Source: a virus. Taken from it: a stretch of DNA of 22,316 nt. The notes under the pieces were generated by a model. It saw only the letters and a program-made list of their open reading frames with translations. It was not told the origin of the DNA and did no database searches. Of the stretch, positions 3,601-22,316 are shown piece by piece (position 1 is the first letter of the stretch; each line of letters starts with the position of its first letter). The translations under genes were made by a program, and so were the position numbers. The stretch is taken from the IMG/VR virus record IMGVR_UViG_3300042450_000116, positions 1 through 22,316 of that record; one strand, given 5' to 3'.

Positions 3601-6600
3601 TAATTGTATCAGTCAGATTAACCGCAGCAACACCAGCTGTAATGGTAAGTCCTGTGCCTTGCTTAATACCACCAAGTTGTGTCGTGGTTGCAGCTGGTAA
3701 AGATAAAGCACCTGTTGCGGTGTTTAAACTTAAGCCACTTGTGGCAACAGCATCAACCATGACTTGACCAAGTGTGGCATTACCCGCAATAGGATAAGTA
3801 ACATTTACTATGCCACCAGAGCCAGCAGCTAAGCCTGTGCCTAGCTTTAAACCGCCTAGTTGTGAAGCAGTACCAATAGGTAAAGACAACGCACCTGTTG
3901 AGGTGTTAAGACTTAAACCACTAGTTGCAACTAGAGCAACCATAACCTGACCAAGGGTAGCAGTGCCAGCAGTAGGATAAGTAACATTTACTATGCCACC
4001 AGAGCCAGCAGCTAAGCCTGTGCCTAGCTTTAAACCGCCTAGTTGTGAAGCAGTACCAATTGGTAAAGACAATGCACCTGTTGAGGTGTTGAGACTTAAA
4101 CCACTAGTTGCAACAACATCAACCATAACTTGACCAAGAGCAGTATTGCCAGCAGTAGGATAAGTAACATTTACTATGCCACCAGAGCCAGCAGCTAAGC
4201 CTGTGCCTAGTTTGAAAGCACCAAGTTGGGTTGCAGTTGCAGGAATAAGTGCAAGAGAACCAAGACCTGTTACACTAATACCGCCATCATTTCCGGGAGT
4301 AATAGATACTAAACCAGTTGAACTAGTTGTAGCAAGACCACCAGAAACAACGCGAGATAAACCAAAGTTTCTAATTGTGATACTTCCTGATGGGGTAGCA
4401 CTAACATATACATTTAGTACTTTAGTTGCTCCACCACTAGTATCTAACCAGAAGTATCCATCATATACAGTACCAGCCGTAGCATCTAATGCATTAGGAG
4501 TGAAGACTCTAGTACCACCCTCAGCATCAATCAGAATCATTGCTGAACTGGTTGCGTATATTGGGTTTGTAGGGTCTACAAAATTAAAGCAATAGCGTAC
4601 AAAGCTTGTGGTTGCTGGGGTTGCGGCTGTAATGGTATTAGCAGATGCCCAAGTTTGTTTAAACACTTGAGGAGCAGCCGTACCAACAACAGTACCACCA
4701 GCATTTAAAATAGCTGTTTCAATATAACCGAAGTTAACGGCATCATTAGATGTCAGAGAACCAGCAGGGCGCATAATCATATCAGTGAGATATTTATTAC
4801 CCGCACTTAGGTTGGATCCGGCAGCATAGATTGTATTAGCTTCTAAGTAACTCTTTGTAACAACATCTTGAGCAGCTGTTGGATTCACTACATTAATAAT
4901 CTTCTTAGTCCCGGCACTTAGCGCACCTCCGGATAAGAAGACTGAATTGGTAGTAAGTCGATTATCAATAGCAGTATTAAGACCTGAAGTTAATGTGTAG
5001 TTTGTGTCTACATAATTCTTCGTTGCTGCATCTTGAGCCAGAGTCGGATCAACTACATTAATAATCTTCTTAGTCCCGGCACTTAGCGAACCTGCAGATA
5101 AGAAGACTGAATTGGTAGCAAGTCGATTATCAATAGCAGTATTAAGACCTGAAGTTAATGTGTAGTTTGTGTCTACATAATTCTTAGTTGCCGCATCTTG
5201 AGCAAGAGTTGGATCAACCATATTACTAATCTTTTTGGTTCCTGCACTGAGTACAGCACCAGACAAGAAGACTGAGTTAGTAGCAAGTCTAGCATCTATA
5301 GGTGTGTTTATAGCCGAGGTTAAAGTATAATTGGTGTCGATATAGTTCTTAGTTGCCGCATCTTGAGCAAGAGTTGGATCAACTACATTAATAATCTTCT
5401 TAGTCCCGGCACTTAGCGAACCTGCGGATAAGAAGACTGAATTGGTAGCAAGTCTTGCATCTATAGGTGTATTGATAGCTGAGGTTAGAGTATAATTAAT
5501 GTCTATATAATTCTTAGTTGCTGCATCCTGAGCCGAAGTAGGATCTACAACCGCAGTAATTCTTTTAGTACCTGCACTGAGTACAGCACCAGATAAGAAG
5601 ACTGAGTTGGTAGCAAGTCTAGCATCTATAGGTGTATTGATAGCTGAGGTTAGAGTATAATTGGTGTCGATATAGTTCTTAGTTGCCGCATCTTGAGCAA
5701 GAGTTGGATCAACCATATTACTAATCTTTTTGGTTCCTGCACTGAGTACAGCACCAGACAAGAAGACTGAGTTAGTAGCAAGTCTAGCATCTATCGTTGT
5801 ATTGAGAGTTGCTGTAGTTGTATAACTAGTTAGAGCAGTATCAACATATAGTTTATTTGCTGCATGACTGTCCACTGTTGGTGTGGCAACACCAAAGATA
5901 TTTTGAGCTACTGAAGATCTTAGGGCAGTAAAGCGACTATTAACTGAATCCCAGAATGGGGCATTCGCTTGAATCTGCGTCAGTGCAGCAGCATTAAAAC
6001 CACTAAGACTTTGGAAATTATCCACTACATATTTCTTAGTAGCTGCATCTTGATCACTTACGGGATTAAGTACATTACTAATTAACTTAGTACCTGCATT
6101 AAAGAAGGAACCAACCCCAAGCGAAAGTGCTCTTGCATCAATAAGAGTATTAGTGTTAGTATTAAAATTACTGATATGTGCTGTTGATAGGGCTACAGAG
6201 TTTGCAGCCACAGTGACTCGTCCCTTAGTATCTACAGTGAATGTAGGAATAGTAGTAGTACTACCATAACTACCAGCTGAAGATGTAGCTAAAGGTGGAA
6301 TCAAAGCATCAGCAAAGGGTGAAGTAGTAATACTAATAGCTGAAGCAGACAACGCAGGAATATCACCACTAGTAATAGCTCGTTGGCTAATAGCGGTTAT
6401 TCTTCCCTTAATATCTACTGTGATATCTTTTATAGGTTGCGTACTATACGCTCCTGCTGCAATAGTGCCAATAGTACTTAGACATGTGTCTGGGAGAACG
6501 AATGCACCGGGAGTAGCTGGATCAATCTTACTAAGAATAATGCCCGAAGGGATAAAACTTAATGGGAAAGCAGCTTGACCTGCTGTAGTTGTATCTAGTT

Positions 6601-8299
6601 TAGCAACTAAAATAGAACCATCAGCAATAGCATCCTTAGGTAAGATATAGCTTTGCGATAAAGCATTGCTTAGTTTGCTTAGTGGAATGTTATTAGGAAG
6701 ATCAGCAATATCCATACTTCTATGGCTAGCAGAAGTTACACGACCTCTGTTATCATATGCAATTTGTAACATGTTGTTGGTATTGGTTGCCGTAGCTTGA
6801 CCATATGTACCAGAACCAGTAACAGAAGTAGTAGGTAAATCATTCAGTTCAATAGATCTATGAGCAGCAGCGGTTAGATTACCTTTACTATCTACAGTAA
6901 AGCGTGTAAGCGTGTTGGCACTAGTGCCACTAACAGCTCCATAAGAACCTGCCGTCACTGTAGTATTTGGTAGATCACTTGTTGTAATAGTAGCAGTACT
7001 AATGGAAGTAATACGACCCTTAGTATCTGCACTGACTGTAAGCAGCTTACCCGTACCACCGTATGACTGCGCGACTAAACCAGATACAACCGGAAGATCA
7101 TCGACCGTCATGTTTCTATGAGACAGACTGGTTAAGATACCTTTGCTATTAACAGACATAGACACCATGTTATTGGTGTTGCTAGCTGTCAGCTGTCCAA
7201 AAGTACCAATAGCTGTGCTCAAACTACTAGGGAGATTCTCTAATGGAAGAGTATAAGTTTGACCCACTGCTGAGCTTAACTTAGATAGGGGGATATTTGC
7301 AGGAAGTCTAGCAATAGCTACTGTGCCTATTGTTAAGTTATCCGCATTATTCAACTGACTTAGATTTACTGCATCAGTTGCCGCAGTACCGGGAGCTAGG
7401 TTTGTAATTTTATAGTCTGTTGCAAAACCCGGAAGTCTGGTTGTAAAGTCACCAGTAAATGTAGGTGTTCCAGCAACTAAATCTGTACGATATAGTGCGC
7501 CCTTGGTTACAGCATTTTTTACTGATAACACATTGGCAGTAAAGGTACCACCTGAGTATTCAATATTATCCTGACCAGTAAAGAATGTTGCAGTATCAGT
7601 AATTTCTTTACTACCAACATCCTTAATAAAGTTATTATTCATTTTCAAATCGCCGTTCCCTAAAAAGGGACCGTCAACTGCATTCTCATCATACTTTAGA
7701 ATAACTTCATTACGAATCTTAGCAACAATTTCTTGTACTAAATACTTTAACTGATCAAACTGTAGATTTAACTGTGTAGTAGTTAAACGAGTTCCGGGTG
7801 CAAAGGTTACAATGCTGTTTAGGGAAAGGGTTTTTCTACGAATAAACACCTTATCATATTGTCTGACTGGAGGTCCTGATGTTGTACTTGCATGTATATG
7901 GGGGATGTCAACATATTGTTCAGCCCCATTTTCATCTCTTAAAGTTAGTAAAAAAGAACGGCTTTCAGGATAAAACCTAAAGGGTTCAAAAGATGAACCA
8001 ACAGGAATAGTATCTAAATCTACAAAAGTTAATACTTTAGTTTGTTCACTAATAGAGTACCAATTTTTTGGGAAGATAAATAATTGTCTTCGGTCTGCAA
8101 TTGTAAATACATTCGTTCCAAAATTAGTATCAGCTCCCGTATCAAAAACTCTCTCGACTTCAATCTGATCAATAAGAGGAACATTCGGTAAGAATGTCAT
8201 CGTACTTAAATCAAAAGTACCACTTGCTACAGATGGATTATTGTTTGAATCAAAGACTAGTGTTGTCTGTGCTATATTTAAATTATCATATGTTGTCAT
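659..8299 (-). CDS. Giant T7-type tail fibre protein, 2546 residues
   Basis: Residues 1 to about 190 match the T7 gp17-type virion anchor: the segment at about 147-189, containing IRRKTLS, TFAPGTRL and LNLQFDQ, has the family's pattern of basic motif, 'F.PGs.L', 'dLN' and a closing helix. This part should dock the fibre to the tail. The rest is poor in charged residues and rich in Ala, Ser, Thr, Gly and Asn, with tandem repeats: six KGR-type motifs (about residues 380-700), a 55-residue repeat (about 834-1147), a 61-residue repeat (about 1357-1543) and a 147-residue repeat (about 1542-1851). A module at about 1988-2015 (GDVTGTVNFDGS) also occurs in an upstream adhesin. The last 100 or so residues are a less repetitive beta-rich domain with aromatic residues, the likely receptor-binding tip; no autocleaving chaperone domain was recognised. 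T7 gp17 is 553 residues. The start follows GGAG and lies 11 bases after tube B. The reading frame is uninterrupted. Confidence 0.93.
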   Translation of the reverse strand: MTTYDNLNIAQTTLVFDSNNNPSVASGTFDLSTMTFLPNVPLIDQIEVERVFDTGADTNFGTNVFTIADRRQLFIFPKNWYSISEQTKVLTFVDLDTIPVGSSFEPFRFYPESRSFLLTLRDENGAEQYVDIPHIHASTTSGPPVRQYDKVFIRRKTLSLNSIVTFAPGTRLTTTQLNLQFDQLKYLVQEIVAKIRNEVILKYDENAVDGPFLGNGDLKMNNNFIKDVGSKEITDTATFFTGQDNIEYSGGTFTANVLSVKNAVTKGALYRTDLVAGTPTFTGDFTTRLPGFATDYKITNLAPGTAATDAVNLSQLNNADNLTIGTVAIARLPANIPLSKLSSAVGQTYTLPLENLPSSLSTAIGTFGQLTASNTNNMVSMSVNSKGILTSLSHRNMTVDDLPVVSGLVAQSYGGTGKLLTVSADTKGRITSISTATITTSDLPNTTVTAGSYGAVSGTSANTLTRFTVDSKGNLTAAAHRSIELNDLPTTSVTGSGTYGQATATNTNNMLQIAYDNRGRVTSASHRSMDIADLPNNIPLSKLSNALSQSYILPKDAIADGSILVAKLDTTTAGQAAFPLSFIPSGIILSKIDPATPGAFVLPDTCLSTIGTIAAGAYSTQPIKDITVDIKGRITAISQRAITSGDIPALSASAISITTSPFADALIPPLATSSAGSYGSTTTIPTFTVDTKGRVTVAANSVALSTAHISNFNTNTNTLIDARALSLGVGSFFNAGTKLISNVLNPVSDQDAATKKYVVDNFQSLSGFNAAALTQIQANAPFWDSVNSRFTALRSSVAQNIFGVATPTVDSHAANKLYVDTALTSYTTTATLNTTIDARLATNSVFLSGAVLSAGTKKISNMVDPTLAQDAATKNYIDTNYTLTSAINTPIDARLATNSVFLSGAVLSAGTKRITAVVDPTSAQDAATKNYIDINYTLTSAINTPIDARLATNSVFLSAGSLSAGTKKIINVVDPTLAQDAATKNYIDTNYTLTSAINTPIDARLATNSVFLSGAVLSAGTKKISNMVDPTLAQDAATKNYVDTNYTLTSGLNTAIDNRLATNSVFLSAGSLSAGTKKIINVVDPTLAQDAATKNYVDTNYTLTSGLNTAIDNRLTTNSVFLSGGALSAGTKKIINVVNPTAAQDVVTKSYLEANTIYAAGSNLSAGNKYLTDMIMRPAGSLTSNDAVNFGYIETAILNAGGTVVGTAAPQVFKQTWASANTITAATPATTSFVRYCFNFVDPTNPIYATSSAMILIDAEGGTRVFTPNALDATAGTVYDGYFWLDTSGGATKVLNVYVSATPSGSITIRNFGLSRVVSGGLATTSSTGLVSITPGNDGGISVTGLGSLALIPATATQLGAFKLGTGLAAGSGGIVNVTYPTAGNTALGQVMVDVVATSGLSLNTSTGALSLPIGTASQLGGLKLGTGLAAGSGGIVNVTYPTAGTATLGQVMVALVATSGLSLNTSTGALSLPIGTASQLGGLKLGTGLAAGSGGIVNVTYPIAGNATLGQVMVDAVATSGLSLNTATGALSLPAATTTQLGGIKQGTGLTITAGVAAVNLTDTINTTSSTTAASATSVNTLRLASMLIDGTIQMTGKLRTATATTAIASLSIPPSAATLGTLVNGDLWNLNDVLQFRTTSATKQIAYRDAATTGALGLVQISTGNDSGLSINGSGVLSVVPATSTLLGGIKQGTGLTITSGVATVNLTDTINTTSSTTAASATSVNTLRLASMLIDGTIQMTGKLRTATATTAIASLSIPSSAVTLGTLVTGDLWNFNDVLQFRTTSATKQLAYRDAATTSALGLVQISTGNDSGLSITGPGVLSIVPATSTVLGGIKQGTGLTITSGVAAVNLSSSLTSILTDTAATSSAIKTVNDYAVATNSALVTATARVTTLESTTVPAVATTANNALARSGGTMTGMIQLPGSTTSLAPIRFVGGSAPTSPTAGDLWWESNTLKLRVGVATKDLAFTDSPLTGNAATATKLATTRAITLTGDVTGTVNFDGSAAVSISTTIAANSVALGTDTTGNYLATATGTDGVSITGSGSEGAGITIANTDKGSSQAIFKTITPSSGTSVTAATNSSTLNLTAGSGITVTGSGSTITIANSAIAPNIFGTIAVAGQSDVVVDTTTDTLTLAAGTGMSITTNATTDTVTFNNTGVTSITGTANQVTVTGTTTPTLSLPQNIHTAATPTFAGATLGSVIITSAAANTLTTTGNLDLILDPAGTGKISLLANVDCSTNTLTAGASTLGTLSCDAITFKTTGTKLKLGTTDSTVEAISTASTGIYAVGDLVLRAPVSGKAFLVYSPSTAPALADAIITKSAMDTAISTATSGFMTLSGAVRATTGDQTLGTTLGSFIVSTASVPKLTIVNSGAATFANTVTVTSGLTVSGGGLTVTGASLLQTGLTVNGSAVTASTAPTTGNHLTNKTYVDAKVGFSSPKAKLRWTWDGTNTYTVNNDSCTVSRTAAGIYTVTLNPAIALPYIVTLAFNYDSTPTYGGGAACPVAQYTDVTPTGFIIRTGKYGQGGAAVDFFDVSVMVFT
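2746..3675 (-). repeat. Tandem 441-bp (147-aa) repeat in the tail fibre
   Basis: Two full copies with a period of 441 bp (about 2746-3186 and 3187-3627) plus the start of a third. Each encodes GGIKQGTGLTIT, NTTSSTTAASATSVNTLR, MLIDGTIQMTGKLRTAT, GDLWN.NDVLQFRTTSATKQ and STGNDSGLSI in that order. The two copies are nearly identical in DNA, including silent positions, which points to recent duplication or conversion. Confidence 0.92.
3671..4230 (-). repeat. Tandem 183-bp (61-aa) repeat array in the tail fibre
   Basis: Three units in a 183-bp register encode repeats containing QLGGLKLGTGLAAGSGG, IVNVTYP, LGQVMV and TSGLSLNT. Runs of more than 80 bases are identical between two of the units, starting near 3791 and 3974. 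Unit edges fall near 3841, 4024 and 4207. 'QLGG(I/L)K.GTGL' repeats are common in long phage side fibres. Confidence 0.92.
4859..5794 (-). repeat. Tandem 165-bp (55-aa) repeat array in the tail fibre
   Basis: Five full units and one partial unit in perfect 165-bp register encode repeats that begin TKNY(I/V)DTNYTLTS, pass through LATNSVFLS and LSAGTKKI, and end DPTLAQDAA. Unit boundaries are near 5023/5024, 5188/5189, 5353/5354, 5518/5519 and 5683/5684. Two non-adjacent units are identical over 119 bases (5181-5299 and 5676-5794). The array is expected to form a regular shaft segment of the trimeric fibre. Confidence 0.93.
6205..7166 (-). repeat. Degenerate KGR-type fibre repeats
   Basis: Six spaced copies of a motif of the form (V/A/Y)D(S/T/N)(K/R)G(R/N/I)(I/V/L)T(S/A) occur, for example VDSKGNLTAAAHR and VDTKGRVTVAAN, usually after a segment like GTYG or GSYG. 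They are diverged in DNA, unlike the three tandem arrays further along the same gene, so they are probably an older shaft repeat. Confidence 0.75.
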
Positions 8300-12394: not shown

Positions 12395-13603
12395 TTAGAC
12401 GGTGGTTGCGTATTCTGCAGCGAAACCATTATCCCAGTTACCAGCAGTCGTAGACTTCAGGTAAGCAGCGATTTCCGTGCGAAGATCAGCAGCACCTGCG
12501 CTTGAACCAGCAGTGATAAGCTTGACCATCTCAGGCTTGATGATACCAGTACCCTTAAGCATGCTGCCTACGGTGAACTGAGTATTACGGCGAACATCCT
12601 GTACCGTATCAACCTTCATGCCCATAAGCGAAAGACCAGCAATCGCTTCGGACTGGAAGATAATACCAAAGATACCGAACTGTGAGCAGTTGAGGTTATA
12701 CTTCAGACCACCAATGTTATTGGCTTCCGTAGTATGGTTGATCTTCGGGATATGGTTCGTCTTAACAATCTTGACACCCATGTAATCAAGGCTGTCAGTC
12801 ATCATGTTCATGCCCTGTGCAATGGATGCACCAGCTCCACCGTAATCAGAGCCAGAAGTAAAGAGTGGCTTATTGACAAACTCATCGTTAGCACGAGGAA
12901 TACCAAGAGCACGGATAACTTGGAACACCTTTGGAGGCACAGCGCAATAGACGCTGCCAATAGCAACATCATTCTCCTGACACACAACGAGGTAATCTTC
13001 GATAGCCTGTAGAACCTTAAGTCCTTCGGTATCCGTAGCACCTGCAACACTTGCAATCGTGTCTGCAACCTGCGAAGGAACATGGAATGCAGCAGCAGCA
13101 AGACCACGAGGATCAGCTGCGCCGATTGCTGGCACTGCACCAGCAGCAACCAATGCCATCAGAATCTGACGGTCACGGGTATTAGCAAGGGTGAGTCCTG
13201 CCTGACGAGCCAACTCAGAGCGGTAATCCCACTGAGTAACAAGCAAGTCAACATTGTCGGTTTCAAAGTGAGCAGCCATAGGACGCTTATCAAGATTGAC
13301 CTTGATAGTGGTGCTCTTATTGTCAGTGGTATCACCACCGAGTTCAATACCAGCATTCCACGATGGGTTAAGACCAACAGTACCAGTGATTGGGAACTCC
13401 CATGAGTATCCACCAGTAAGGGTCTTGTTCGTAACGAGGTTTTCAAACACATTGAACTGATCGTATGCGTTGATTACTTCACCAGACCAAAGGGGGAGCC
13501 AGAGCTTATTAACGCCAGCTGATCCACCTGAGGTTTCAACATCAACTGCACTACGAGTCAGTGCTAAATCTCCAGCTGCAATATTATTTCCTGAAAATGC
13601 CAT
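12395..13603 (-). CDS. Major capsid protein (T7 gp10-like, HK97 fold expected)
   Basis: A 402-residue protein in the T7 gene 10 position, between scaffold and tube A (T7 gp10A has 345 residues). The N-terminus (MAFSGNNIAAGDLALTRSA), the segment KLWLPLWSGEVINAYDQ, the following FENLV..KTL.GGYSWEFPITG and the helix with YRSELARQAGLTLANTRDR at about 126-144 follow the order seen in T7-like capsid proteins. It assembles around the scaffold protein into the procapsid. Codon use has more C at third positions than the fibre genes, as is common for a highly expressed gene. The leader of about 186 bases contains two hairpins; the ribosome site before the ATG is weak (AAGAAAGAAT). A strong terminator follows. 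The start is supported by the family-like N-terminus. Confidence 0.93.
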   Translation of the reverse strand: MAFSGNNIAAGDLALTRSAVDVETSGGSAGVNKLWLPLWSGEVINAYDQFNVFENLVTNKTLTGGYSWEFPITGTVGLNPSWNAGIELGGDTTDNKSTTIKVNLDKRPMAAHFETDNVDLLVTQWDYRSELARQAGLTLANTRDRQILMALVAAGAVPAIGAADPRGLAAAAFHVPSQVADTIASVAGATDTEGLKVLQAIEDYLVVCQENDVAIGSVYCAVPPKVFQVIRALGIPRANDEFVNKPLFTSGSDYGGAGASIAQGMNMMTDSLDYMGVKIVKTNHIPKINHTTEANNIGGLKYNLNCSQFGIFGIIFQSEAIAGLSLMGMKVDTVQDVRRNTQFTVGSMLKGTGIIKPEMVKLITAGSSAGAADLRTEIAAYLKSTTAGNWDNGFAAEYATTV

Positions 13604-13769: not shown

Positions 13770-13790
13770 ATCCGTTGTCTTGTTACGGAT
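13770..13790 (-). other. Small hairpin at the scaffold stop codon
   Basis: ATCCGT and ACGGAT pair perfectly over 6 bases with a 9-base loop (AACAAGACA on the transcript), touching the scaffold stop codon at 13790-13792. It lies 9 bases before the longer stem-loop. No U tract follows. It may work with that stem in the capsid leader. Confidence 0.45.
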
Positions 13791-14719
13791 TATTTGGGTA
13801 ATTTAGTAAAGTCGGTTCGCATCATCCGCTGTTCCACATATGCCCGATACTTAGGATCAGCTTTGAAACCCGGATGATTACGCTCTGCAGAGAACTCTCG
13901 CTTAGTTTGGTAAGCGACAATACCCTGCTGAGTAGATGCCATAGAGACTTGTCCCTTTGCACTTGGCTTGGGTTCTGCACCCTTGCTTGTCTGTGTGGTC
14001 TTAGCATACTTAGCCTGAAGCCCATAGAGGGCTACATCCCAAGATGCCGATGCTAGGTTCTGATTGACTGAAGCCTGTTCTGCAGGACTGAGGTTCTTGC
14101 TAGCCCAGACAAAGAGTTTACTTAACTCTTCCCGACCACCAACTAACTCAGATGCTTTAGTATAAGCCATCTCAATCTTAGCCTTCTGTCCCTGCATATA
14201 TTCATTAACAACATAATCAGGAAGACCAGTCTTCTTCTTAATAACTTCCAATGTCTCAGGCGAGAGATCATTGTTAGCTGTGAACTCAATGGTCCACTGC
14301 TTCCAATCATCTGAGGATGCCGGGATGTTCTCTACCTTGGCTACCTCTTCAACCTTGTTCTCTGGAATCTTTAAGATCTCTGGTAGCAAAGGAATTACTT
14401 CCTTCACAGGTTCTACCACAGGTTGTCCCGTAACTGTATTAGCAGTTGACGGGGTTTGTTCGTACTTCTTCTTCAGGTCTGCGACTTCTTGTCGTGACTG
14501 AGTATATCCTTTTTGAGCAGTCTTTAAACTCTCAAACCAAGATCCGGCATCCTTGAAGTTTTCAGGGACAGCCATACCTTGGTTTCTTACATAAGCATCA
14601 AAGGCTACTTTCTCACGGGCAAGCTGAGCATCCTCTGGAGTCGATGTAAGAGATTGTTCCGAAGACATGACTGGAGTCTCGGGGGATTGTTCCATCATAT
14701 CGGGAGTCTCTTCATTCAT
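13790..14719 (-). CDS. Scaffolding (capsid assembly) protein
   Basis: A 309-residue protein in the T7 gene 9 position (T7 gp9 has 307 residues). The N-terminus is acidic and low in complexity (MNEETPDMMEQSPETPVMSS), a heptad-like helical segment lies around residues 65-90 (YTQSRQEVADLKKKYEQ), the middle is rich in Pro, Val and Glu, and the C-terminus is basic (YRAYVEQRMMRTDFTKLPK), as expected for the part of scaffold proteins that contacts the capsid protein. It has no cysteine. It directly precedes the capsid gene with a hairpin-bearing leader between them and is preceded by a small lysine-rich peptide and a candidate phage promoter. The start site has only a weak upstream match (GAAAGA). 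Sequence conservation is low in this family, so the call rests on composition, length and order. Confidence 0.85.
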   Translation of the reverse strand: MNEETPDMMEQSPETPVMSSEQSLTSTPEDAQLAREKVAFDAYVRNQGMAVPENFKDAGSWFESLKTAQKGYTQSRQEVADLKKKYEQTPSTANTVTGQPVVEPVKEVIPLLPEILKIPENKVEEVAKVENIPASSDDWKQWTIEFTANNDLSPETLEVIKKKTGLPDYVVNEYMQGQKAKIEMAYTKASELVGGREELSKLFVWASKNLSPAEQASVNQNLASASWDVALYGLQAKYAKTTQTSKGAEPKPSAKGQVSMASTQQGIVAYQTKREFSAERNHPGFKADPKYRAYVEQRMMRTDFTKLPK

Positions 14720-14863: not shown

Positions 14864-14881
14864 GGCTATAGAGTTATAGAT
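14864..14881 (-). promoter_or_regulatory. Candidate T7-type phage RNA polymerase promoter
   Basis: On the minus strand TAATCTATAACTCTATAG matches 11 of 18 positions of the T7 promoter from -17 to +1 (TAATACGACTCACTATAG), keeping both conserved blocks: TAAT at -17 to -14 and CTATAG at -5 to +1. It lies in the short gap after the 174-aa gene and before the lysine-rich peptide, scaffold and capsid, a place comparable to phi-9 of T7. A host sigma-70 element is also conceivable in this AT-rich gap. Confidence 0.4.
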
Positions 14882-15405
14882 TAACCAATAGAGCAATAAT
14901 TGTACAAGATGTTAGCGTATGCTGCTGTGGCTGTAGCTGAGATAAAATCAACCTCAATGTGGGAACATCCAAACACTGGGACAACTACTGATGCTACCGA
15001 TAGCACAGCAGAGTTGTTAATAAGTGTGTTGGCACTAGTACCAGCAGTTGCTGTGATACCATGTATAGCTTTGAGAGCAACAGAGTTGTTAGTAATCATT
15101 GTAGAAGCCTGAACTCCTCCAATTGAACCTGCAAACAATAGTGTTGGATAGTAAGTAATACCTAGTTTAGACCAACCCGTTACTCGAAAGCCAGCACTGG
15201 TTGTGAAGCTGAGCAGTAAAGGATGAATACGCACATGTGTATAGGAACCTGAGGGAATAATTAAACTTGTGGCATCACTTGCTATAGAGGTTAGTGTCGT
15301 GTGTTCGTTATAAGCCGTTGTGGAATTAATGTTGGCAGTAGTTATTCCAACAAACATATCCTCTCTTGCTTGCTTTGTTTGAGACATTGTATGTGTATGA
15401 ATCAT
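14881..15405 (-). CDS. Predicted beta-rich virion protein, 174 residues, unknown
   Basis: I do not recognise a named family. The protein is rich in Ala, Ser, Thr, Val and Ile, has few charged residues and alternates short hydrophobic stretches (HVRIHPLLLSF, GFRVTGWSKLGITYYPTLLF), as phage decoration and adhesin proteins often do. There is no signal peptide. Its first ATG shares one base with the stop of the 32-aa gene upstream (TAATG); a second ATG six codons later (15387, MSQTKQARED) is an equally likely start since neither has a strong ribosome site. It is the last gene of the island between portal and scaffold and ends just where the candidate promoter begins. A virion role is inferred from composition and neighbours. 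Confidence 0.75.
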   Translation of the reverse strand: MIHTHTMSQTKQAREDMFVGITTANINSTTAYNEHTTLTSIASDATSLIIPSGSYTHVRIHPLLLSFTTSAGFRVTGWSKLGITYYPTLLFAGSIGGVQASTMITNNSVALKAIHGITATAGTSANTLINNSAVLSVASVVVPVFGCSHIEVDFISATATAAYANILYNYCSIG

Positions 15406-15503
15406 TATTTTTTATCTTTCTTTGGGTACACTATCTTTGTAGCGTCTTTACCCGTGCATGTGGTAGTTTTACCACAGTTACATTTGTATGTTGTTTTTGC
15501 CAT
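15405..15503 (-). CDS. 32-residue cysteine-containing peptide
   Basis: A short frame encodes MAKTTYKCNCGKTTTC followed by a lysine-rich tail (32 residues). The CNCG and TTTC parts give three cysteines within nine residues, recalling half of a zinc-binding knuckle. It starts 9 bases after the stop of the 60-aa gene and its stop overlaps the start of the 174-aa gene (TAATG), so it fits the operon exactly. The ribosome site is weak (TAAAGAA). Its function is unknown. Confidence 0.6.
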   Translation of the reverse strand: MAKTTYKCNCGKTTTCTGKDATKIVYPKKDKK

Positions 15504-15512
15504 TATTATTCT

Positions 15513-15695
15513 TTAGGGTTCTTTATACACCAAATCAAAAAATGCATATGCTTCTTCTATGGTGTCAAACCAATACCATCCCTGTACGGGATAGGTATAA
15601 GTATCTTTTTGTGAGTAATGAAGGTCAAGATCCATGCTAGCAATACAGGTTTCTACAATTTGTACTTCTTCATTTTCTAATTTATAAAATGCCAT
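15513..15695 (-). CDS. Small acidic protein with GWYWFDT motif, unknown
   Basis: A 60-residue acidic protein with a region of aromatic residues near its C-terminus (GWYWFDTIEEAYAFF). I have an impression of similar small proteins in other phages of aquatic bacteria but cannot assign a family or function. It starts four bases after the stop of the LRR gene, with AGGA lying partly in that gene's end (ACAGGATAATACT before ATG), and is followed after 9 bases by the cysteine peptide. The tight spacing supports it as a real gene in the same operon. Confidence 0.7.
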   Translation of the reverse strand: MAFYKLENEEVQIVETCIASMDLDLHYSQKDTYTYPVQGWYWFDTIEEAYAFFDLVYKEP

Positions 15696-15699
15696 AGTA

Positions 15700-18090
15700 T
15701 TATCCTGTTACTGCCCATCCCTTGAGAAGAGCAGTTTGTGTTTTTAGGGTTCTAAATGCCAATGAGGTAGAACCAGTTGCTGTTGCGGGTCTACTAACTG
15801 TAATGTTAGTGTTTGGTGTGATAGCAGTAACTACAGATTCCCAACGAACTGTTCCTGTTCCGTTTGTAGTAAGAGCAATAGCAGCACCACCTGAAGTGGC
15901 TGCTACTTGGAAAGTGTCTGTGGCTGCACTAATTACAAAATATATTGTATTGGTAACAATTCCTGTTGTGGTAACAATTGTAGCAAAACTAACATGATCA
16001 CCATTAGACAAACCATGTGCTGTTTTTGTGACTAGATCACCAGCATCTGTAAAGGTGCAAGCAATGGCTGTAGTGGCAGGACTTCCTGTACCCGTCCATT
16101 GCATACCTACAACAACACCTGCTGTGTTTGCTGCTGTGATTGTGGTTAATCCTGCGGTTGGAGTGCAAGTAAGTGAAACAGGAGTTACCGCTCCCCAATT
16201 ACTGCTAATATTTAATATTAAGCCTTGTGTGTTTGCTCTACCTATATTATTAATAATATTTGTGAGTTCTGTTTCGGATAATTTACAACCAGAAACCTGA
16301 TGGGCAAATCTAATACCAGATATAGTTGCTTTAACTAGTGAAGGACACGAAAGAAATATGTTATTCGTGCTGGTTGCACTTGCAACATTAAACTGGGGCA
16401 CTGTTGTAAGTGCACCACAACCAGCCAACATACCACTTATATCAGTTGCATTCGCAGTATTAAACAAAGGCACGGTAGTAAGTGACTGACAACCATTGAA
16501 CATACTACCCAAATTAGTTGCACTCGAAGTGTTAAACAGGGGTACTGTTCTAAGTGAAAGACAATTAGCAAACATATTACTCATATCACCTACACCCGCA
16601 GTATTAAACAGCGGTACTTCAGTGAGTGAGCGACAACCATTGAATAGGCTGTTAGTACCACCAAAAGCACCAGTAGTTAGAGCCGCAGTGTTAAACGGAG
16701 GCACTGATATAAGTGAACTACAACCACCAAACATACCACCCATAGTAGTCACATTTGCAAGATTAAAGGATGGTACTCTTTTTAGTAAGGCACACTGACT
16801 AAACATACTACTCGTATTAGTCACACTAGCAGTGTTAAACAAAGGCACCGTGCTAAGTACAGAGCAAGTAGCAAACATCTGACTCATATTAGTCACAAGC
16901 GAAGTGTTAAACAAAGGCACTGTTGTAAGTGCACGACAACCATTGAACATACCACCCATATTAGTAACACTCGCAGTGTTAAATAGTGGTACTTCAGTGA
17001 GTACAAGACACTGAGAAAACATCTGACTCATATTAAGCAAACTAGCAGTATTAAACAGTGGTACTCTAAGAAGTGAAATACAATTAGCAAACATATTGTT
17101 TGTATTAGTTACACTGATAGTATTAAACAAAGGTACGGTAGTAAGTGAGTTACAAAGAGAAAACATACTAGTCATGTTAATCACACTAGCAGTGTTAAAC
17201 AGCGACACTGTTGTAAGTGCCCCACAATTACTAAACATAAAACTTGTATCTGTTAAAGCTGAATTAAAAACTAAATCAACAGTTCTTAAATTACGCGCCG
17301 AATTGAATAAGTAACTTGCACTTGCATTTGTCATTGCATTGCTTAATATACACACTTGTTCTAATGAGTTAAAAGCAATGGTTTGTGTAGCAACTCCCGC
17401 AGTAGCTACACCAATCAAAATACTTGTAAGACTTGGACCTGCAATTTTTATATCAAGAAAGCCACTGCTATAAGTATTTAAATTAGTTTGATTGTGTTTT
17501 CTGTGTACATTTATGGTTGTAAATGATTGTCCTGCTTGTGGTGTCACAGTAACAACTGCTAGTTTGTACGATAGTAAAGTAGCACTTCCATTTGTGGTGA
17601 GTGGTAGGGCAGATCCACCAAGCGTAGCAGATACCTGAAATGTATCAGCGGCTGCATTAATAACATAATATATCTGTCCTTCACTCAGCCCTGTGGTACT
17701 TACAATATTATAAAAACTTACTGTGTTTCCGTTTGAATAGCCGTGTGCTGTTCGAGTAACCACATCACCCGTATCAGTAAGAGTTACAGGAGCATTCGTG
17801 TTATTCAATCCAGCAGCAGTGAAGTTATATTGATGTTGTGCAACCACATCACTATTAATATTTTCTGTGGCACTTCCGTCACCCCAATCCACAGTATAGT
17901 TTCCTGCTGCGCTTAGTGCTAGAAAGTTCGAATCTACATCTACTCTGTGCAACCCAACAAATTTATTATCTGCACCTGTCATAGCAGGAAGCGCAGTCCA
18001 TGCAGGATTTCTTACCCAAGAGGTAGTACTCTGACTGCTAGTTAATTGTTTTGGTTTTATATTTTTTTGTGTGGCGTATCCAAAACTCAT
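15700..18090 (-). CDS. BspA-type leucine-rich-repeat adhesin-like protein, 796 residues
   Basis: The protein has an N-terminal tail, a PKD-like beta domain (NYTVDWGDGSATENI at 64-78, resuming with AVVTVTPQAGQSF at 178-190), 13 tandem repeats of mostly 24 residues (269-585) and a C-terminal beta region. The repeats have the pattern tVPLFNTasVTNMs.MF..C.sL typical of BspA/DUF285-type LRRs, known mainly from bacterial and protist surface proteins that bind ligands. Each unit carries one cysteine in the same place. A domain of about 69 residues (TAHG motif) occurs twice, at 104-172 and 680-748, once within the PKD-like domain and once within the C-terminal domain. There is no signal peptide or membrane anchor, so it is probably a virion adhesin rather than a secreted product. 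The start overlaps the upstream stop (ATGA). Binding target unknown. Confidence 0.88.
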   Translation of the reverse strand: MSFGYATQKNIKPKQLTSSQSTTSWVRNPAWTALPAMTGADNKFVGLHRVDVDSNFLALSAAGNYTVDWGDGSATENINSDVVAQHQYNFTAAGLNNTNAPVTLTDTGDVVTRTAHGYSNGNTVSFYNIVSTTGLSEGQIYYVINAAADTFQVSATLGGSALPLTTNGSATLLSYKLAVVTVTPQAGQSFTTINVHRKHNQTNLNTYSSGFLDIKIAGPSLTSILIGVATAGVATQTIAFNSLEQVCILSNAMTNASASYLFNSARNLRTVDLVFNSALTDTSFMFSNCGALTTVSLFNTASVINMTSMFSLCNSLTTVPLFNTISVTNTNNMFANCISLLRVPLFNTASLLNMSQMFSQCLVLTEVPLFNTASVTNMGGMFNGCRALTTVPLFNTSLVTNMSQMFATCSVLSTVPLFNTASVTNTSSMFSQCALLKRVPSFNLANVTTMGGMFGGCSSLISVPPFNTAALTTGAFGGTNSLFNGCRSLTEVPLFNTAGVGDMSNMFANCLSLRTVPLFNTSSATNLGSMFNGCQSLTTVPLFNTANATDISGMLAGCGALTTVPQFNVASATSTNNIFLSCPSLVKATISGIRFAHQVSGCKLSETELTNIINNIGRANTQGLILNISSNWGAVTPVSLTCTPTAGLTTITAANTAGVVVGMQWTGTGSPATTAIACTFTDAGDLVTKTAHGLSNGDHVSFATIVTTTGIVTNTIYFVISAATDTFQVAATSGGAAIALTTNGTGTVRWESVVTAITPNTNITVSRPATATGSTSLAFRTLKTQTALLKGWAVTG
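15847..16053 (-). repeat. TAHG-motif domain, copy 2, in the LRR protein
   Basis: It encodes residues 680-748 (TDAGDLVTKTAHGLSNGD to TTNGTGTV), identical to copy 1 at about 43 of 69 positions. It interrupts a domain whose two halves (GMQWTGTGSPATTAIA and SVVTAITPNTNITVSRPA) would read as one continuous, commonly seen phage beta unit. Confidence 0.8.
16336..17286 (-). repeat. 13-unit array of 72-bp LRR repeats
   Basis: The units encode 24 residues each, except the ninth, which has 29 through an insertion (TTGAFGGTNSLF). They follow the consensus tVPLFNTasVTNMs.MF..C.sL. Twelve units end in a C-x-x-L tail and one in CALL, with the cysteine kept in all 13. The DNA of units is diverged enough that unit boundaries are clear but the array is not a recent expansion. 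Confidence 0.92.
17575..17781 (-). repeat. TAHG-motif domain, copy 1, in the LRR protein
   Basis: It encodes residues 104-172 (LTDTGDVVTRTAHGYSNG to LTTNGSATL). It lies between the two parts of the PKD-like domain, after QHQYNFTAAGLNN and before KLAVVTVTPQ. Copy 2 lies on the other side of the LRR array. Confidence 0.8.
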
Positions 18091-18413
18091 GTGATTTCTG
18101 TCCCATAAAGATTAAAAGAAACATTTGTAGTACCTGCATAAACAGATACAACATCTGTGGTAGCCAACGACAAACCAAGAGTGAAGAATAAGGTATCGTT
18201 AGCATTTACTGTTGTTTCATAGACAATATAATGTTGGTTTGCAATACCTGCACCCGCAGGACGAACTGCAACACGAACAGTTGTTGATACTCCGATATTA
18301 CATACCGTTAAAGTAGAAGCAACAGCAGAGGTTGATGCGGGTACTGTATACAGACTTGTAAGCGTTGTTGCAGCAGGGTTTGATTGACCTAAAACTTTGT
18401 ATATGTTTGCCAT
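18087..18413 (-). CDS. Small beta-rich virion protein, 108 residues
   Basis: The protein begins MANIYKVLGQSNPAATTLTSLYTVPAST-like and continues with VCNIG..TTVRVAVRPAGAG, ETTVNANDTLFFTLGLSLATTDVVSVYAG and FNLYGTEIT. I know this pattern from many phages of aquatic bacteria, where it is encoded among tail or adhesin genes; no biochemical function is established to my knowledge. There is no signal peptide or membrane helix. It starts four bases after the stop of the 84-aa gene, with the ribosome site GGAG inside the end of that gene, and overlaps the LRR gene by four bases (ATGA). The context suggests a virion-surface or adhesin-adaptor role. Confidence 0.82.
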   Translation of the reverse strand: MANIYKVLGQSNPAATTLTSLYTVPASTSAVASTLTVCNIGVSTTVRVAVRPAGAGIANQHYIVYETTVNANDTLFFTLGLSLATTDVVSVYAGTTNVSFNLYGTEIT

Positions 18414-18417
18414 ATTT

Positions 18418-18672
18418 TTATGCTCCCATAAACAAGAATGTTTGTTCTAACCCAACAGAAGAGTTAATAGTAATCGTATTGCCAGATGGGACTAAGGTAA
18501 TATCTCTACCCGCTATTAAAGTAGGTCCTATTTGAACCACTGATGTATCATCTTTTTTTAGATACAATTTTCCATCTGCCGTGTTTACAGCCAGTTCTCC
18601 CGCAACTAGAGATCCACTTGAGGGAACGGCTGATGCCGTTGCGCTTCGTTTAAGTCGAATTATATTTGCCAT
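18418..18672 (-). CDS. Small Mtd-N-like fibre/adaptor protein, 84 residues
   Basis: It begins MANIIRLKRSATASAVPS and continues with LVAGELAVNTADGKLYLKKDDT, the pattern of short N-terminal domains that start phage fibres (like the Mtd N-terminal family: basic strand, GELA.n..DgklY.k..). A short beta segment (ITLVPSGNTITINS) and FLFMGA end the protein. It is essentially the N-terminal module alone, without the long shaft carried by its neighbour. The start has GAGGT overlapping the previous gene's stop codon. It may be an adaptor, a decoration protein, or a remnant of a longer fibre. Neighbours on both sides are adhesin-like. Confidence 0.78.
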   Translation of the reverse strand: MANIIRLKRSATASAVPSSGSLVAGELAVNTADGKLYLKKDDTSVVQIGPTLIAGRDITLVPSGNTITINSSVGLEQTFLFMGA

Positions 18673-18680
18673 TAGTTACC

Positions 18681-19832
18681 TCAATAAGATCCACCGTCAA
18701 TGGTGCTGTCTGTGTATAAACCATTTGTAACTGTACTTGCATTACCAATCAAAGCACCACGGAAATTAGTCGCTTGGATGTCACCCATAGTTCCAGAGAA
18801 AACTTCGGTTGTATTGGTTGCGTCTGGAATAAAGGTTAGATATCCAGTTGAATCGTCAAATCCAAAGAAGCCAAGCTTTGCCGAAGTTCCATTGTGCCAC
18901 CTAAATTCTACTCCGCGATCCTTGCTATCATCTGATGCAGGAGCGGTGTCACCACCAAGAGTAATGATGGGGTCATCAAGAGTTACTGTGGTTGAATTAA
19001 CTGTAGTGGTAGTTCCGTTGACTGTTAGGTTGCCGCCAACAATAACATTTCCTGTGGATGACAGAGCTGCACAATTAAGTGTTCCAGTGAATGTTGGTGT
19101 TGCTGAAAGAACAACCGAGCCAGTTCCGGTGCTTGTAGTAACGCCAGTACCGCCCTGTCCAACCGACAGTGCAGTTGTTAATCCTGTAAGAGATGTAATG
19201 TCAGAGTTTGCACCCCGCAAGGCAATACCAGCTCCTGCAAGTGTACTAGCTCCAGTACCACCGTTTGCAAGAGGAAGAACTCCACTTACAGCCGTTGCTA
19301 AAGCAACACCACTTGATGAGCCTGTGCCACCATTTGCAATAGGCAGAATACCACTTACACTGGCTGTTAAACTTACGCCACTTGCTGAGCCAGTACCACC
19401 TTGAGCTACAGTCAGTGGGGTTGTTAAACCAGTGATAGATGTAATATCAGCGTTAGCTCCCTTAAGAGCAAAACCTGTAGCCGCAAGTGTACTAAAGCCA
19501 GTACCACCATTTGCAATACCCAGAACACCAGTTACACCTGTGGTTAATGGCAGACTAGTACAATTAGTCAGTGTGCCAGATCCGGGAGTTCCAAGTACAG
19601 TAGCACCAGTGAATGTTTTAACACCTGCAATAGTTTGTGCAGTACTTCCAAGAGAAACAAAAGCACCAAGTCCTCCGATTGCTTGAATAGTAGTAGCAGT
19701 TCCTCCTGCCCCACCAGTGCCTTCTCCGTAGTAAAGAATATCTGTTCCTTCTGTGAACGCCAGCTCTGCATTTGCAAGTGAGGTTGGTGCAGCACTTCCT
19801 GTACTTCGCTTAATTCTAATTGTGTTTGCCAT
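18681..19832 (-). CDS. Fibre-like protein with ANGGTG repeats, 383 residues
   Basis: It begins MANTIRIKRSTGSAAPTSL with an N-terminal module like that of the 84-aa neighbour (basic strand, ANAELAFTEGTDILYYGEG). Residues of about 100-230 hold five copies of an (A/V)(N/Q/G)GGTG motif, often after GVLG(I)- or GILP(I)-type segments, a common fibre shaft repeat. The C-terminal part (NLTVNGTTTTVNS, ITLGGDTAPASDDSKDRGVEF, KLGFFGFDDSTGYLTFIPD) resembles cyanophage-type structural proteins, and the last residues are STIDGGSY. The ribosome site is AAGGAAAA before the ATG; it lies 8 bases after the 170-aa gene. Likely a short fibre or head/neck appendage; where it attaches cannot be read from sequence. 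Confidence 0.85.
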   Translation of the reverse strand: MANTIRIKRSTGSAAPTSLANAELAFTEGTDILYYGEGTGGAGGTATTIQAIGGLGAFVSLGSTAQTIAGVKTFTGATVLGTPGSGTLTNCTSLPLTTGVTGVLGIANGGTGFSTLAATGFALKGANADITSITGLTTPLTVAQGGTGSASGVSLTASVSGILPIANGGTGSSSGVALATAVSGVLPLANGGTGASTLAGAGIALRGANSDITSLTGLTTALSVGQGGTGVTTSTGTGSVVLSATPTFTGTLNCAALSSTGNVIVGGNLTVNGTTTTVNSTTVTLDDPIITLGGDTAPASDDSKDRGVEFRWHNGTSAKLGFFGFDDSTGYLTFIPDATNTTEVFSGTMGDIQATNFRGALIGNASTVTNGLYTDSTIDGGSY

Positions 19833-19840
19833 AATTTTCC

Positions 19841-20353
19841 TTAGTAATTTCCACCATCAAGTAGTGGAATGATTGTTGTAATTGTAACATTATTTGAGCC
19901 ATCAAAATTTGCATTGCCAGTTGCCTCGCCTCCAAGACTTATTGTTCTTGTATTGAGTAACTGTGAAGCAGTGCTTGTGTTTCCTGCAATAGTATTAGAG
20001 ACAGCTAAATTAGTGAGAGTTCCGACTGCTGTTAAACTAGATGTAACAACATTAGGTGCCAGTGTTGTACCTGTAAGACTTGCTGCAGCTGTTGTACCAA
20101 TTGGACCCGTAGGTCCTGTTGGTCCTGCAGGTCCTGTAGCACCTACAGATCCTGTAGCACCCGGAGGTCCTGTAACACCTGTCGGTCCTGGAATTCCTGT
20201 ATAGTAAGAAAGAGATATCCATGCTGTAGTACCATCTCCAGCCTTAATAAGGTTTGTATCAGTTTCAAATCCTAACTCACCAACAATTAAAATTGGATTA
20301 GCAGCAGTCCATTGTGCAGCAGTACCACGCCTTATTTGAATCTTAGATGCCAT
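19841..20353 (-). CDS. Collagen-like fibre protein, 170 residues
   Basis: Residues 1-50 are an Mtd-N-like start (KIQIRRGTAAQW, NPILIVGELGFETDT, IKAGDGTTAWISLSYY). Residues 53-86 are 11 uninterrupted Gly-X-Y triplets (GIPGPTGVTGPPGATG onwards), a collagen-like triple-helix segment that implies a trimer. The C-terminal half contains TRTISLGGEATGNANFDGSNNVT, which is also present in altered form in the giant tail fibre, and ends LLDGGNY. The ATG shares one base with the stop of the 70-aa gene and has GGAGGT before it. It is probably a trimeric appendage or adaptor in the adhesin island. Collagen-like proteins are frequent in phage fibres. Confidence 0.87.
   Translation of the reverse strand: MASKIQIRRGTAAQWTAANPILIVGELGFETDTNLIKAGDGTTAWISLSYYTGIPGPTGVTGPPGATGSVGATGPAGPTGPTGPIGTTAAASLTGTTLAPNVVTSSLTAVGTLTNLAVSNTIAGNTSTASQLLNTRTISLGGEATGNANFDGSNNVTITTIIPLLDGGNY
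20096..20197 (-). repeat. Collagen-like Gly-X-Y repeat
   Basis: The stretch encodes 11 Gly-X-Y triplets plus a final Gly, rich in Pro, Thr and Ala. The DNA shows the matching 9-base periodicity (repeated ggtcctg-type units on the plus strand). Confidence 0.92.
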
Positions 20354-20565
20354 TAAGGTGTACCTCCATCTATAGTTGTTATGTTACTATAGTTATCACT
20401 AGGAAAACCACCATCAATCATCCCTGCATTTATATCCGCTACAAGTGCTTCCACTTTAGCTTTACTTTGAGTCAGATTGGCTAGTGTATTTGTCTGTTCT
20501 TGTAAGAGAGTTTTTAATTTTTTATTTAATAACTGCTGTTGTTGTAATGCTTTGCTGGAACTCAT
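20353..20565 (-). CDS. Short coiled-coil protein, 70 residues
   Basis: Residues 5-47 form a polar helix with heptad spacing of Leu, Val and Ala (QQQQLLNKKLKTLLQEQTNT and on), a likely coiled coil. The last part (GMIDGGFPSDNYSNITTIDGGTP) contains IDGG twice, the same ending seen on the 170-aa and 383-aa neighbours. Start and stop both use the TAATG overlap, linking it to the DUF6321-like gene before and the collagen-like gene after. It may oligomerise with a neighbouring fibre protein. Its function is unknown. Confidence 0.75.
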   Translation of the reverse strand: MSSSKALQQQQLLNKKLKTLLQEQTNTLANLTQSKAKVEALVADINAGMIDGGFPSDNYSNITTIDGGTP

Positions 20566-20861
20566 TACTTACATTTTCTATTTTTAGGGCATGATGTCTT
20601 AGACTTACCGGGTCCACCCCATAGGTCTTTGCATGCCCAGTATTTAGCAGTGAGTTTATTACTTGCTGAATCACACTTATGTCTAGCCTTGAAAGACTTA
20701 CGAGCTTCAGGACTATAGTTGTTACCATAACCCGCTGCTCCATAATGAATGATCTTTTCTTTTCCATTAGCACAAGCCTTTACTACCCGTTTCTTATTGG
20801 GATTAGGAGACTTAGTGGGTTTGTTACAAGACATGCTAGCTTTATTAACTTTCTTAGCCAT
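20565..20861 (-). CDS. DUF6321-like basic, cysteine-rich small protein, 98 residues
   Basis: The protein begins MAKKVNKASMSCNKPTKSP and contains VVKACANGKEKIIHYG, then SPEARKSFKARHKCDS and AKYWACKDLWGG. This order and the RKSFKARHKCD...AKYWACK core are the pattern I know as DUF6321, frequent in phages of aquatic bacteria. Six cysteines (12, 30, 63, 77, 91, 97) and a strongly basic charge suggest a metal-binding or nucleic-acid-binding role, which is inference. I chose the ATG at 20861 over an upstream one at 20915 because AGGAGG stands 8 bases before it and because the family usually begins MAKKV. It overlaps the portal gene by 8 bases and is joined to the coiled-coil gene by TAATG. Confidence 0.85.
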   Translation of the reverse strand: MAKKVNKASMSCNKPTKSPNPNKKRVVKACANGKEKIIHYGAAGYGNNYSPEARKSFKARHKCDSASNKLTAKYWACKDLWGGPGKSKTSCPKNRKCK

Positions 20862-22316
20862 TAGGTTGTCCTCCTGTAAATGCAGACATGTCAGCACCTG
20901 AGTTCTGTAGAACATTCATGATACCTTGTCCACCATTTTGTGCAAGATCCTGTTGTCCTGCCTGTGCCATGATGTTACCCATTGCTCCAGCAGTTGCCTG
21001 TGTGGAAGCCTGAGCCATCTGTTGCTGAGCCTGTTGCTGCTGTAGCATCATCTGCTCTTGTTGAATATCTTCAGCTGAGCGTACCCAATTACGGGCATCA
21101 AAGCCAAGAGAAGTAATCAATGCTCTAGCATACTCTTCCCATTTAAATGCAGCGGCTGCTTGCTCAGGTAGATTGCGAACCATCTCGCCCATCTGCATAA
21201 GCTTTTGCAAATCAGTGTCACGACTTAAGGCTTGAAGACCAGTAATTACTTCAATAGATAGTACACCTTCATCATCAAAGAACTGTTCATACATTCTTGT
21301 ATCAAGTTCTTCTTTCTCAATCATTAAAAATACAGATCGCTTGACAATTGGTTCCATGAGATCTCTAGCGATAGCACTGAATGCTCCACCTAAGACTGTC
21401 TCAAGTTCAGAACCAATCATACGAACAGCGGTAGCAGTCACGCGGTCACCACTTGGCAGTGAGGAAGCAGACATTAGGAATGCCTGACCAATCTCTCTAC
21501 GCATAGTTTCAACAGCGGTCTGAGCGGCTGAGATCTGTGGGTTCATTGTCTGTGATGGTGACAGTACAAATACATCGGCTTGTCTCACGGGGATCCATGA
21601 GCCATTAGGTGCATCCGCAACATCATCTACCTCAGTAATACCGGATGGATCAATGCCCATCCAGAAGGCTGAGGCTGCTGCCATGCCATCTAGCAAGGCT
21701 CTCGTATACCCATCAAGACTTGATAGGTCGCCGAGGATATCTTCGCAGTGCGATCTCCCGTAGTTTTCTCCGGGTATGCCGTACCACCGTAGTACCGTCA
21801 CAGGACATACTTCGTAGACACCGCTTGTCAGTAGGTTGCCATCGCTGTCTTCCTTTTTGTACTTCCATAGATTGTCCTCCTTGAGATATTGACAATATGT
21901 TTTTTTGTAACCTCTCTTAGCGGATTCGGGTAAGGAGAAGTGTTGGCTAATTGCTTCTGGGTCTACAAGATCATATTCAATATGAATAATTTCATTGACA
22001 TCTCCAGCAACAGTACGCTGTACAGCATAGTTATCTAAACGGGTAACTCTAAACTTAAAGTCATCCATCTCATGTACTAAACAATCTCCAACTACAATTA
22101 GATTTTGAATTGTTTGAAAGATTGTTTCTCTTAAGTTAGTACCAATAAGTTTACGATAGACTTGATAACTCATTGTCTCAAGGTACTGCCCAATTTCTGC
22201 GGTTGGTTCTGTACCAGATCGCAGACCAAATTTAAAGAAGGGTGTGTCATTCAAAGGCATCATTGCTGATAGCATTCGACTGGCTAGTGAAGTCACACCT
22301 CTTGCACCAACAGATG
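20854..22316 (-). CDS. Portal protein / head-to-tail connector (5' end cut by window)
   Basis: The frame is open to the window edge and shows 486 residues of a T7 gp8-type portal (536 residues in T7), lacking about the first 50-60. It begins in SVGARGVTSLASRMLSAMMP, a segment found in this family near residue 60. Further landmarks are NLIVVGDCLVHE, the RWYGIPGENYGRSHCEDILG motif, the SG-x-ITEVDDVADAPNGSWIP part of the channel domain, and ATAVRMIGSELETVLGG. The C-terminal 80 residues are Gln/Met/Ala-rich (QQQQAQQQMAQASTQATAG), as in many T7-like portals. The portal forms the dodecameric ring through which DNA is packaged and released. The valine coded by GTG at 22296 is internal, not a start. 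It is followed by the adhesin island instead of the scaffold gene. Confidence 0.93.
   Translation of the reverse strand, partial: SVGARGVTSLASRMLSAMMPLNDTPFFKFGLRSGTEPTAEIGQYLETMSYQVYRKLIGTNLRETIFQTIQNLIVVGDCLVHEMDDFKFRVTRLDNYAVQRTVAGDVNEIIHIEYDLVDPEAISQHFSLPESAKRGYKKTYCQYLKEDNLWKYKKEDSDGNLLTSGVYEVCPVTVLRWYGIPGENYGRSHCEDILGDLSSLDGYTRALLDGMAAASAFWMGIDPSGITEVDDVADAPNGSWIPVRQADVFVLSPSQTMNPQISAAQTAVETMRREIGQAFLMSASSLPSGDRVTATAVRMIGSELETVLGGAFSAIARDLMEPIVKRSVFLMIEKEELDTRMYEQFFDDEGVLSIEVITGLQALSRDTDLQKLMQMGEMVRNLPEQAAAAFKWEEYARALITSLGFDARNWVRSAEDIQQEQMMLQQQQAQQQMAQASTQATAGAMGNIMAQAGQQDLAQNGGQGIMNVLQNSGADMSAFTGGQPNG
20870..20875 (-). promoter_or_regulatory. Strong Shine-Dalgarno site that decides the DUF6321-like start
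   Basis: AGGAGG on the minus strand lies 8 bases before the ATG at 20861, within the 3' end of the portal gene. It argues against the longer frame that begins at 20915. Confidence 0.8.

Follow-up and report, generated by a model that had tools for sequence, protein, structure and literature searches.

A DUF285-type leucine-rich repeat protein as a proposed exchangeable fibre tip of uncultured phages

Introduction

What does a protein made of DUF285-type (BspA-type) leucine-rich repeats (LRR) do in a phage, when bacterial and protist DUF285 proteins are mostly found at the cell surface? This question is raised by a 796-residue open reading frame in a viral stretch of 22,316 nucleotides (IMG/VR record IMGVR_UViG_3300042450_000116), hereafter called the window. 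A preliminary description of the gene had reported thirteen DUF285-like repeats with one aligned cysteine each, no secretion signal and a location among fibre genes, and had proposed a virion adhesin whose cysteines might form a buried ladder or respond to redox conditions.

Phage-genome DUF285 proteins are already present in databases, and fibre-plus-chaperone modules that cross phage morphotypes are also known, being common to Alteromonas phages A5, V22, and P24 (PMC10579305). In our literature search, no paper treated DUF285 proteins as receptor-binding tips of phages, and none described an LRR solenoid as an interchangeable tip; in a coral Vibrio phage, a weak LRR match (10% probability) lies in a variable tail insertion (PMC10945359).

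Results

The DUF285 profile (PF03382) matches the 796-residue protein with 144 bits against a gathering cut-off of 25 (E 2.2e-42), which is far beyond chance. The thirteen cysteines of the array (residues 289, 313, 337, 361, 385, 409, 433, 457, 486, 510, 534, 558, and 582) are in register at a spacing of 24 residues throughout, apart from one insertion of five residues, and together with the Pfam match they bear out the repeat count given earlier. AlphaFold2 (AF2), with 36 related sequences as input, returned a model with a mean pLDDT of 91.7 that falls below 50 only at residues 1-21. Foldseek searches with this model matched the LRR proteins PcpA, 4h09, and LGR4 in the PDB (E 1e-5 to 1e-4) and phage "surface protein 26-residue repeat" proteins in BFVD. 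The predicted fold is an LRR solenoid, which at the level of the model refutes the possibility that the repeats form no solenoid.

From the N-terminus, the protein is ordered as a short disordered tail, a DWGDG domain with an E1_FCCH-like insert, the repeat array, and a C-terminal domain that contains a second FCCH-like copy and ends in KGWAVTG (Table 1). The motif G.Y.VDWGDG is invariant across 36 relatives. The insert of the N-terminal domain is missing from some relatives (L008 and L011), and the two copies in the window are 61% identical. Segments of this kind, about 65 residues long (window positions 17587-17790 and 15841-16065), were also seen within the protein encoded just upstream of the LRR gene at another locus (L073), and the segment has the appearance of a mobile domain inserted into phage structural proteins. 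Neither a signal peptide nor a surface anchor was recognised by hydropathy, the best 15-residue stretch starting in the first 46 residues reaching a KD value of 0.61, in agreement with the earlier report of an absent secretion signal.

A cysteine occupies the equivalent position in 97% of 715 repeat units of the relatives (consensus MFxxCxxL), whereas positions 3, 4, 6, 9, 17, 18, 21, 23, and 24 of the repeat are variable. Therefore, the cysteine marks the repeat family and a redox reading is unneeded. Although its presence in 13/13 repeats of the array could recall a functional redox or disulfide ladder, this frequency is expected for a consensus core position of the repeat and no other sign of redox was observed; we reject the ladder and the special role first ascribed to these residues as highly improbable.

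The window represents a fragment of a T7-like podovirus with portal, scaffold, major capsid protein, tail tubular proteins A and B, and a 2546-residue tail protein. The LRR gene lies in this virion gene block, with portal, scaffold, capsid, and tail tube proteins on its flanks. The portal is about 30% identical to those of Lau218, Roseobacter, and Limnohabitans phages. The interval between portal and scaffold holds no genes in Lau218 and only small ones before the capsid gene in Limnohabitans phage YIMV22061, whereas in the window it is occupied by a fibre island that shows Mtd_N, collagen, and structural-protein matches and has the LRR gene close to its end. The placement of the gene among fibre genes was thus confirmed. 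The Pfam matches in the window include Mtd_N domains, the one feature seen here that recalls Mtd/DGR tropism systems, which are defined by a reverse transcriptase with template and variable repeats. The stop codon of the gene preceding the LRR gene overlaps the LRR start. Three adjoining genes of the island end in IDGGSY, LDGGNY, and IDGGTP (18681-18700, 19841-19860, and 20353-20370), and ends of the same type (IDGGTY/MDGGTY) occur on fibre genes of T4-like contigs (L259-L261). The 2546-residue protein (659-8299) is among the virion proteins most unlike the sister phage, with 62-70% identity in segments.

Table 1. Features of the window; genes are numbered relative to the LRR gene in the direction of transcription
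Feature	Position	Strand	Basis
2546-aa tail/fibre-like protein, slot after tail tubular B	659..8299	(-)	PHROG tail matches; slot as in Lau218
Major capsid protein	12395..13603	(-)	PHROG 6.5e-25
Scaffold	13790..14719	(-)	PHROG 8.5e-19
174-aa gene downstream of the cassette, retained in L276 despite the swap	14881..15405	(-)	
Segment for which sister contig L276 has a Gly-rich adhesin	15503..18569	(-)	blastn collinearity on both sides
+1 gene, 60 aa (FYK...YPVxGWYWFD), short form, proposed dedicated assembly chaperone	15513..15695	(-)	
LRR (DUF285) protein, 796 aa, proposed fibre-tip adhesin	15700..18090	(-)	Pfam, AF2, exchange data
C-terminal part, residues 602-796, second E1_FCCH-like copy, KGWxVTG end	15703..16287	(-)	
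LRR array, residues about 285-601, 13 Cys-bearing repeats, fast-diverging	16288..17238	(-)	Sequence, divergence
N-terminal DWGDG domain (PKD-like by motif), residues about 22-230	17401..18027	(-)	Motif, confident strands
E1_FCCH-like insert in N-terminal domain, residues 101-168	17587..17790	(-)	Weak Pfam match below cut-off
-1 gene, 108 aa, 8-strand jelly-roll-like, proposed adaptor	18087..18413	(-)	AF2, -1 position, tail-fibre PHROG similarity
-2 gene, 84 aa, Mtd_N-like start, tail GLEQTFLFMGA, proposed fibre/attachment gene	18418..18672	(-)	
GLEQTFLFMGA tail codons, proposed docking peptide	18421..18453	(-)	
383-aa fibre/structural gene	18681..19832	(-)	PHROG structural and tail fibre matches
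170-aa Mtd_N and collagen-repeat gene	19841..20353	(-)	Pfam 1.3e-15 and 1.1e-6
70-aa gene, IDGGTP C-terminus	20353..20565	(-)	
Portal (head-tail connector)	20854..22314	(-)	Pfam PF12236 1.6e-46

Scanning IMG/VR viral contigs with a five-sequence profile yielded about 70 distinct full or partial LRR relatives on contigs of 4-197 kb. They share one architecture, and most have about 4-19 recognisable repeats. We read the contigs as freshwater in origin from the accompanying contigs and the sample identifiers, not from a record. The usual cassette comprises a -2 fibre gene with a conserved C-terminal tail, a -1 gene of about 108-121 residues, the LRR gene, and a +1 gene of about 60 residues, which was present at 49 LRR loci and is longer in some. 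The -1 genes fall into two small types of about 108 (32 loci) and about 121 residues (21 loci), for which homology was rejected (hhalign probability 0.2%). The type present in the window yields an eight-strand jelly-roll-like AF2 model (pLDDT 92.3) with weak and generic PDB matches, one of them a trimeric phage cement protein. In lambda-type loci (L250 and L049), a GpJ-type central tail fibre gene is located upstream of the cassette. A search for the +1 motif in GTDB genomes, as a link to prophages or hosts, gave no match; a wider scan found six weak relatives, and the locus in a Zoogloea MAG (L250) is an LRR/+1 pair beside the GpJ gene.

Three further loci deserve mention. One 36-kb contig carries three tandem LRR genes of the family (L087:3782-9872; 645-646 residues). 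In L202 (IMGVR_UViG_2718217757_000002), whose identifier has a non-metagenome pattern, an LRR/+1 pair follows lysis-type genes and may lead to a host. A Flavobacterium supellecticarium contig (L246) has three DUF285 genes alternating with others at its end, possibly a prophage fibre locus.

Although the -2 genes are highly diverse in length and kind, their last residues track the -1 type. FLLMGA-like ends accompany -1 type 1 in 26 of 29 distinct C-termini and IIxLSxFL-like ends accompany type 2 in 10 of 11, with no crossover; the Fisher p of 4e-9 for this matching is too small because the loci are related. Since the tail type follows the -1 type in this way, the matching suggests that the -2 tail docks on the -1 protein.

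When viral contigs were searched with the +1 motif only, 80 loci were found, and the LRR gene or its C-terminus lies upstream in all 73 that could be read. Six of these show the LRR C-terminal signature only and one (L205) is split between reading frames. The 73 should not be counted as independent events, since many of the loci are closely related. The +1 gene is directly downstream of its presumed fibre gene, the position expected of a fibre chaperone. Some long +1 forms contain the C-terminal domain of phrog_6034 (down to 3e-18), while the 60-residue copy of the window consists of the N-domain only. Homologues of the phrog_6034 type follow tail fibre or tail genes in isolate phages phiM5, P26059A, and HHBS14_1, and in the P2-like phage Acica one precedes the sheath gene and is bordered on the other side by the fibre region. 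The phiM5 fibre that precedes gp21 bears a mark of detection in the particle proteome, which gp21 itself does not. Compared with the solved chaperones Tfa and gp25, the +1 protein gave neither a PDB profile match nor a Pfam chaperone match; short forms had no Pfam or PHROG match and the window copy none among isolate phages, and assignment to a named family was rejected on these grounds. The likeness of the +1 protein to tail-fibre chaperones lies in gene position and in the optional C-terminal domain, not in sequence.

Gly-rich tips such as those of the gp38 type and Pam3 gp24 are known phage receptor binders. In a sister contig (L276), both flanks align collinearly with the window (about 90-91% identity, 81% in part; blastn), and between them about 1.3 kb encoding a 240-residue Gly-rich protein takes the place of the segment with the -1, LRR, and +1 genes. 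Between portal and scaffold, other contigs whose portals are 98-99% identical carry a 334-residue Gly-rich protein with a 63-residue partner or fibre-like proteins of 1.2-1.35 thousand residues. As expected of a fibre tip, the LRR gene shares its slot with alternative tip genes of sister phages. The Gly-rich proteins had no PDB match, and the label "adhesin" derives from their sequence pattern.

The exchange also appears to extend across phage types. A T4-like contig (L005; gp45, gp44, gp62, and RegA) has -1/LRR DNA 97.4% identical over 2.8 kb to that of a podovirus (G001), and its sisters (L260: 97% over 5.8 kb) have a 362-residue Gly-rich protein and a 63-66-residue partner at the LRR position. 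This junction is known from one contig, which ends inside the LRR gene, and a search for a second contig with the junction found none. A simple assembly chimera is disfavoured, as at the junction the presumed parents have no common string longer than 9 bp.

Divergence is concentrated in the array. Between the window and G001, the array has 61% amino acid identity (dS 0.95), whereas residues 641-796 have 97% (dS 0.11) and most flanking domains 88-97%; between L086 and L101, nucleotide identity is 80% in the array and 98-99.5% at the ends. Such a conserved attachment part with a diversified binding part is expected of a fibre tip, although misaligned paralogous repeats may inflate array divergence. 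With an array dN/dS of 0.32 and this misalignment, turnover or replacement is indicated and not positive selection. One 72-bp unit, an exact copy of the unit beside it, separates L033 from L035, and one near-identical unit separates L034 from L047; an assembler could collapse such units, and we do not take these pairs as clean proof of turnover. The repeat difference between L042 and L086 involves a fused unit and is less open to assembly collapse. Gain or loss of repeat units is therefore likely, if partly open to assembly error.

Discussion

We propose, with a probability of roughly 0.7, that the LRR protein is an exchangeable, fast-evolving receptor-binding protein at the tip of an accessory virion fibre, which is served by an adaptor and a chaperone. 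It is possible that the -2 protein acts as the fibre or anchor, with its short hydrophobic tail docked on the jelly-roll adaptor (-1), and that this adaptor holds the LRR protein via its N-terminal part. The stacked repeats of the solenoid would then offer a binding surface for a host-envelope ligand, and the small +1 protein would serve as a dedicated assembly chaperone. Host range could change as whole tip cassettes are swapped with other phages and as repeats turn over between conserved ends. The first proposal of a virion adhesin gains support, short of proof, from the anatomy of the locus and, more strongly, from the exchange with Gly-rich proteins, the chaperone-like +1 gene, and the missing signal peptide.

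Attachment to the head is a possibility raised by the location of the cassette. The cassette belongs to the head gene block both in the window and in T4-like contigs, and the podovirus already fills the usual fibre slot with its 2546-residue tail protein. The LRR protein might instead be a head fibre or decoration protein that sticks loosely to cells, particles, or mucus and does not set host range. In the window the gene lies between portal and scaffold/capsid genes, in T4-like contigs it closely precedes the prohead protease gene, the DUF285 gene of S-SKS1 is found between a "capsid assembly protein" and the prohead protease, some upstream genes match head decoration PHROGs, and the cement protein among the -1 matches points the same way. 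However, those jelly-roll matches are weak and generic, the cassette follows GpJ in lambda-type loci, and the chaperone-like +1 gene and the Gly-rich exchange suit fibre tips better, so that we regard a head fibre as unlikely, though it is the alternative to be taken most seriously. Action in or on the infected cell, for example in superinfection exclusion or as an effector, is suggested by the usual cell-surface location of cellular DUF285 proteins. This is improbable, considering that the LRR protein has no signal peptide or anchor, that its gene tightly overlaps structural genes, and that the segment is exchanged with fibre-type genes. Moreover, the purified particles of an algal virus, AaV, were found to contain two DUF285 proteins (PMC7507832).

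The proposed fibre tip can also be compared with known systems. It is the same as BspA-type proteins in repeat sequence, solenoid fold, and cysteine position, but it differs in lacking a secretion signal or anchor and in having a phage structural context, fixed end domains, and dedicated neighbours. The Alteromonas modules have a similar order of small protein, fibre, and chaperone and are likewise common to podo-, myo-, and siphoviruses (PMC10579305), but they use another tail fibre and a DUF4376 chaperone where the present loci combine an LRR solenoid with a +1 family that has no name. The Pam3 chaperone gp25 binds its fibre through an N-domain of 55 residues, continues into a helical C-domain, and does not occur in virions (PMC9608196). 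Its two-domain layout recalls the long +1 forms, some of which join a phrog_6034-type C-domain to the N-domain, and the alternative alleles of our loci are Gly-rich like gp24; the differences are that +1 has no detectable similarity to solved chaperones and that an LRR protein replaces the Gly-rich tip. Cyanophages S-SKS1 and S-CBWM1 encode proteins, annotated as hypothetical or putative tail proteins, that share the WGDG domain, DUF285 repeats, a similar C-terminal end, and a place in a structural gene block. In contrast to the present family, their arrays are short, W replaces the M-F pair, and no -1 or +1 gene of these families was recognisable. Tandem DUF285-type repeats with variable copy number and horizontal spread also characterise PARCEL elements (PMC2996958), but their unit is 25 residues rather than 24, and the DNA dyad symmetry of these elements was not found here, the best dyad scores being no higher than those of codon-shuffled controls.

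In a wider sense, DUF285-type LRR solenoids might constitute a widespread class of freshwater phage fibre tips, exchanged among T7-like, T4-like, and lambda-like phages via a common tail-peptide/adaptor interface, with repeat turnover generating diversity by a logic like that of lamprey variable lymphocyte receptors; we regard this generalisation as evenly poised. Receptor-binding proteins limit host prediction for uncultured phages, and a tip class with fixed neighbours (the -2 tail, the -1 adaptor, and the +1 gene) would make these proteins callable from sequence. It would also explain the role of many phage "BspA-like" annotations, and it allows the effect of repeat turnover on phage adsorption to be tested directly.
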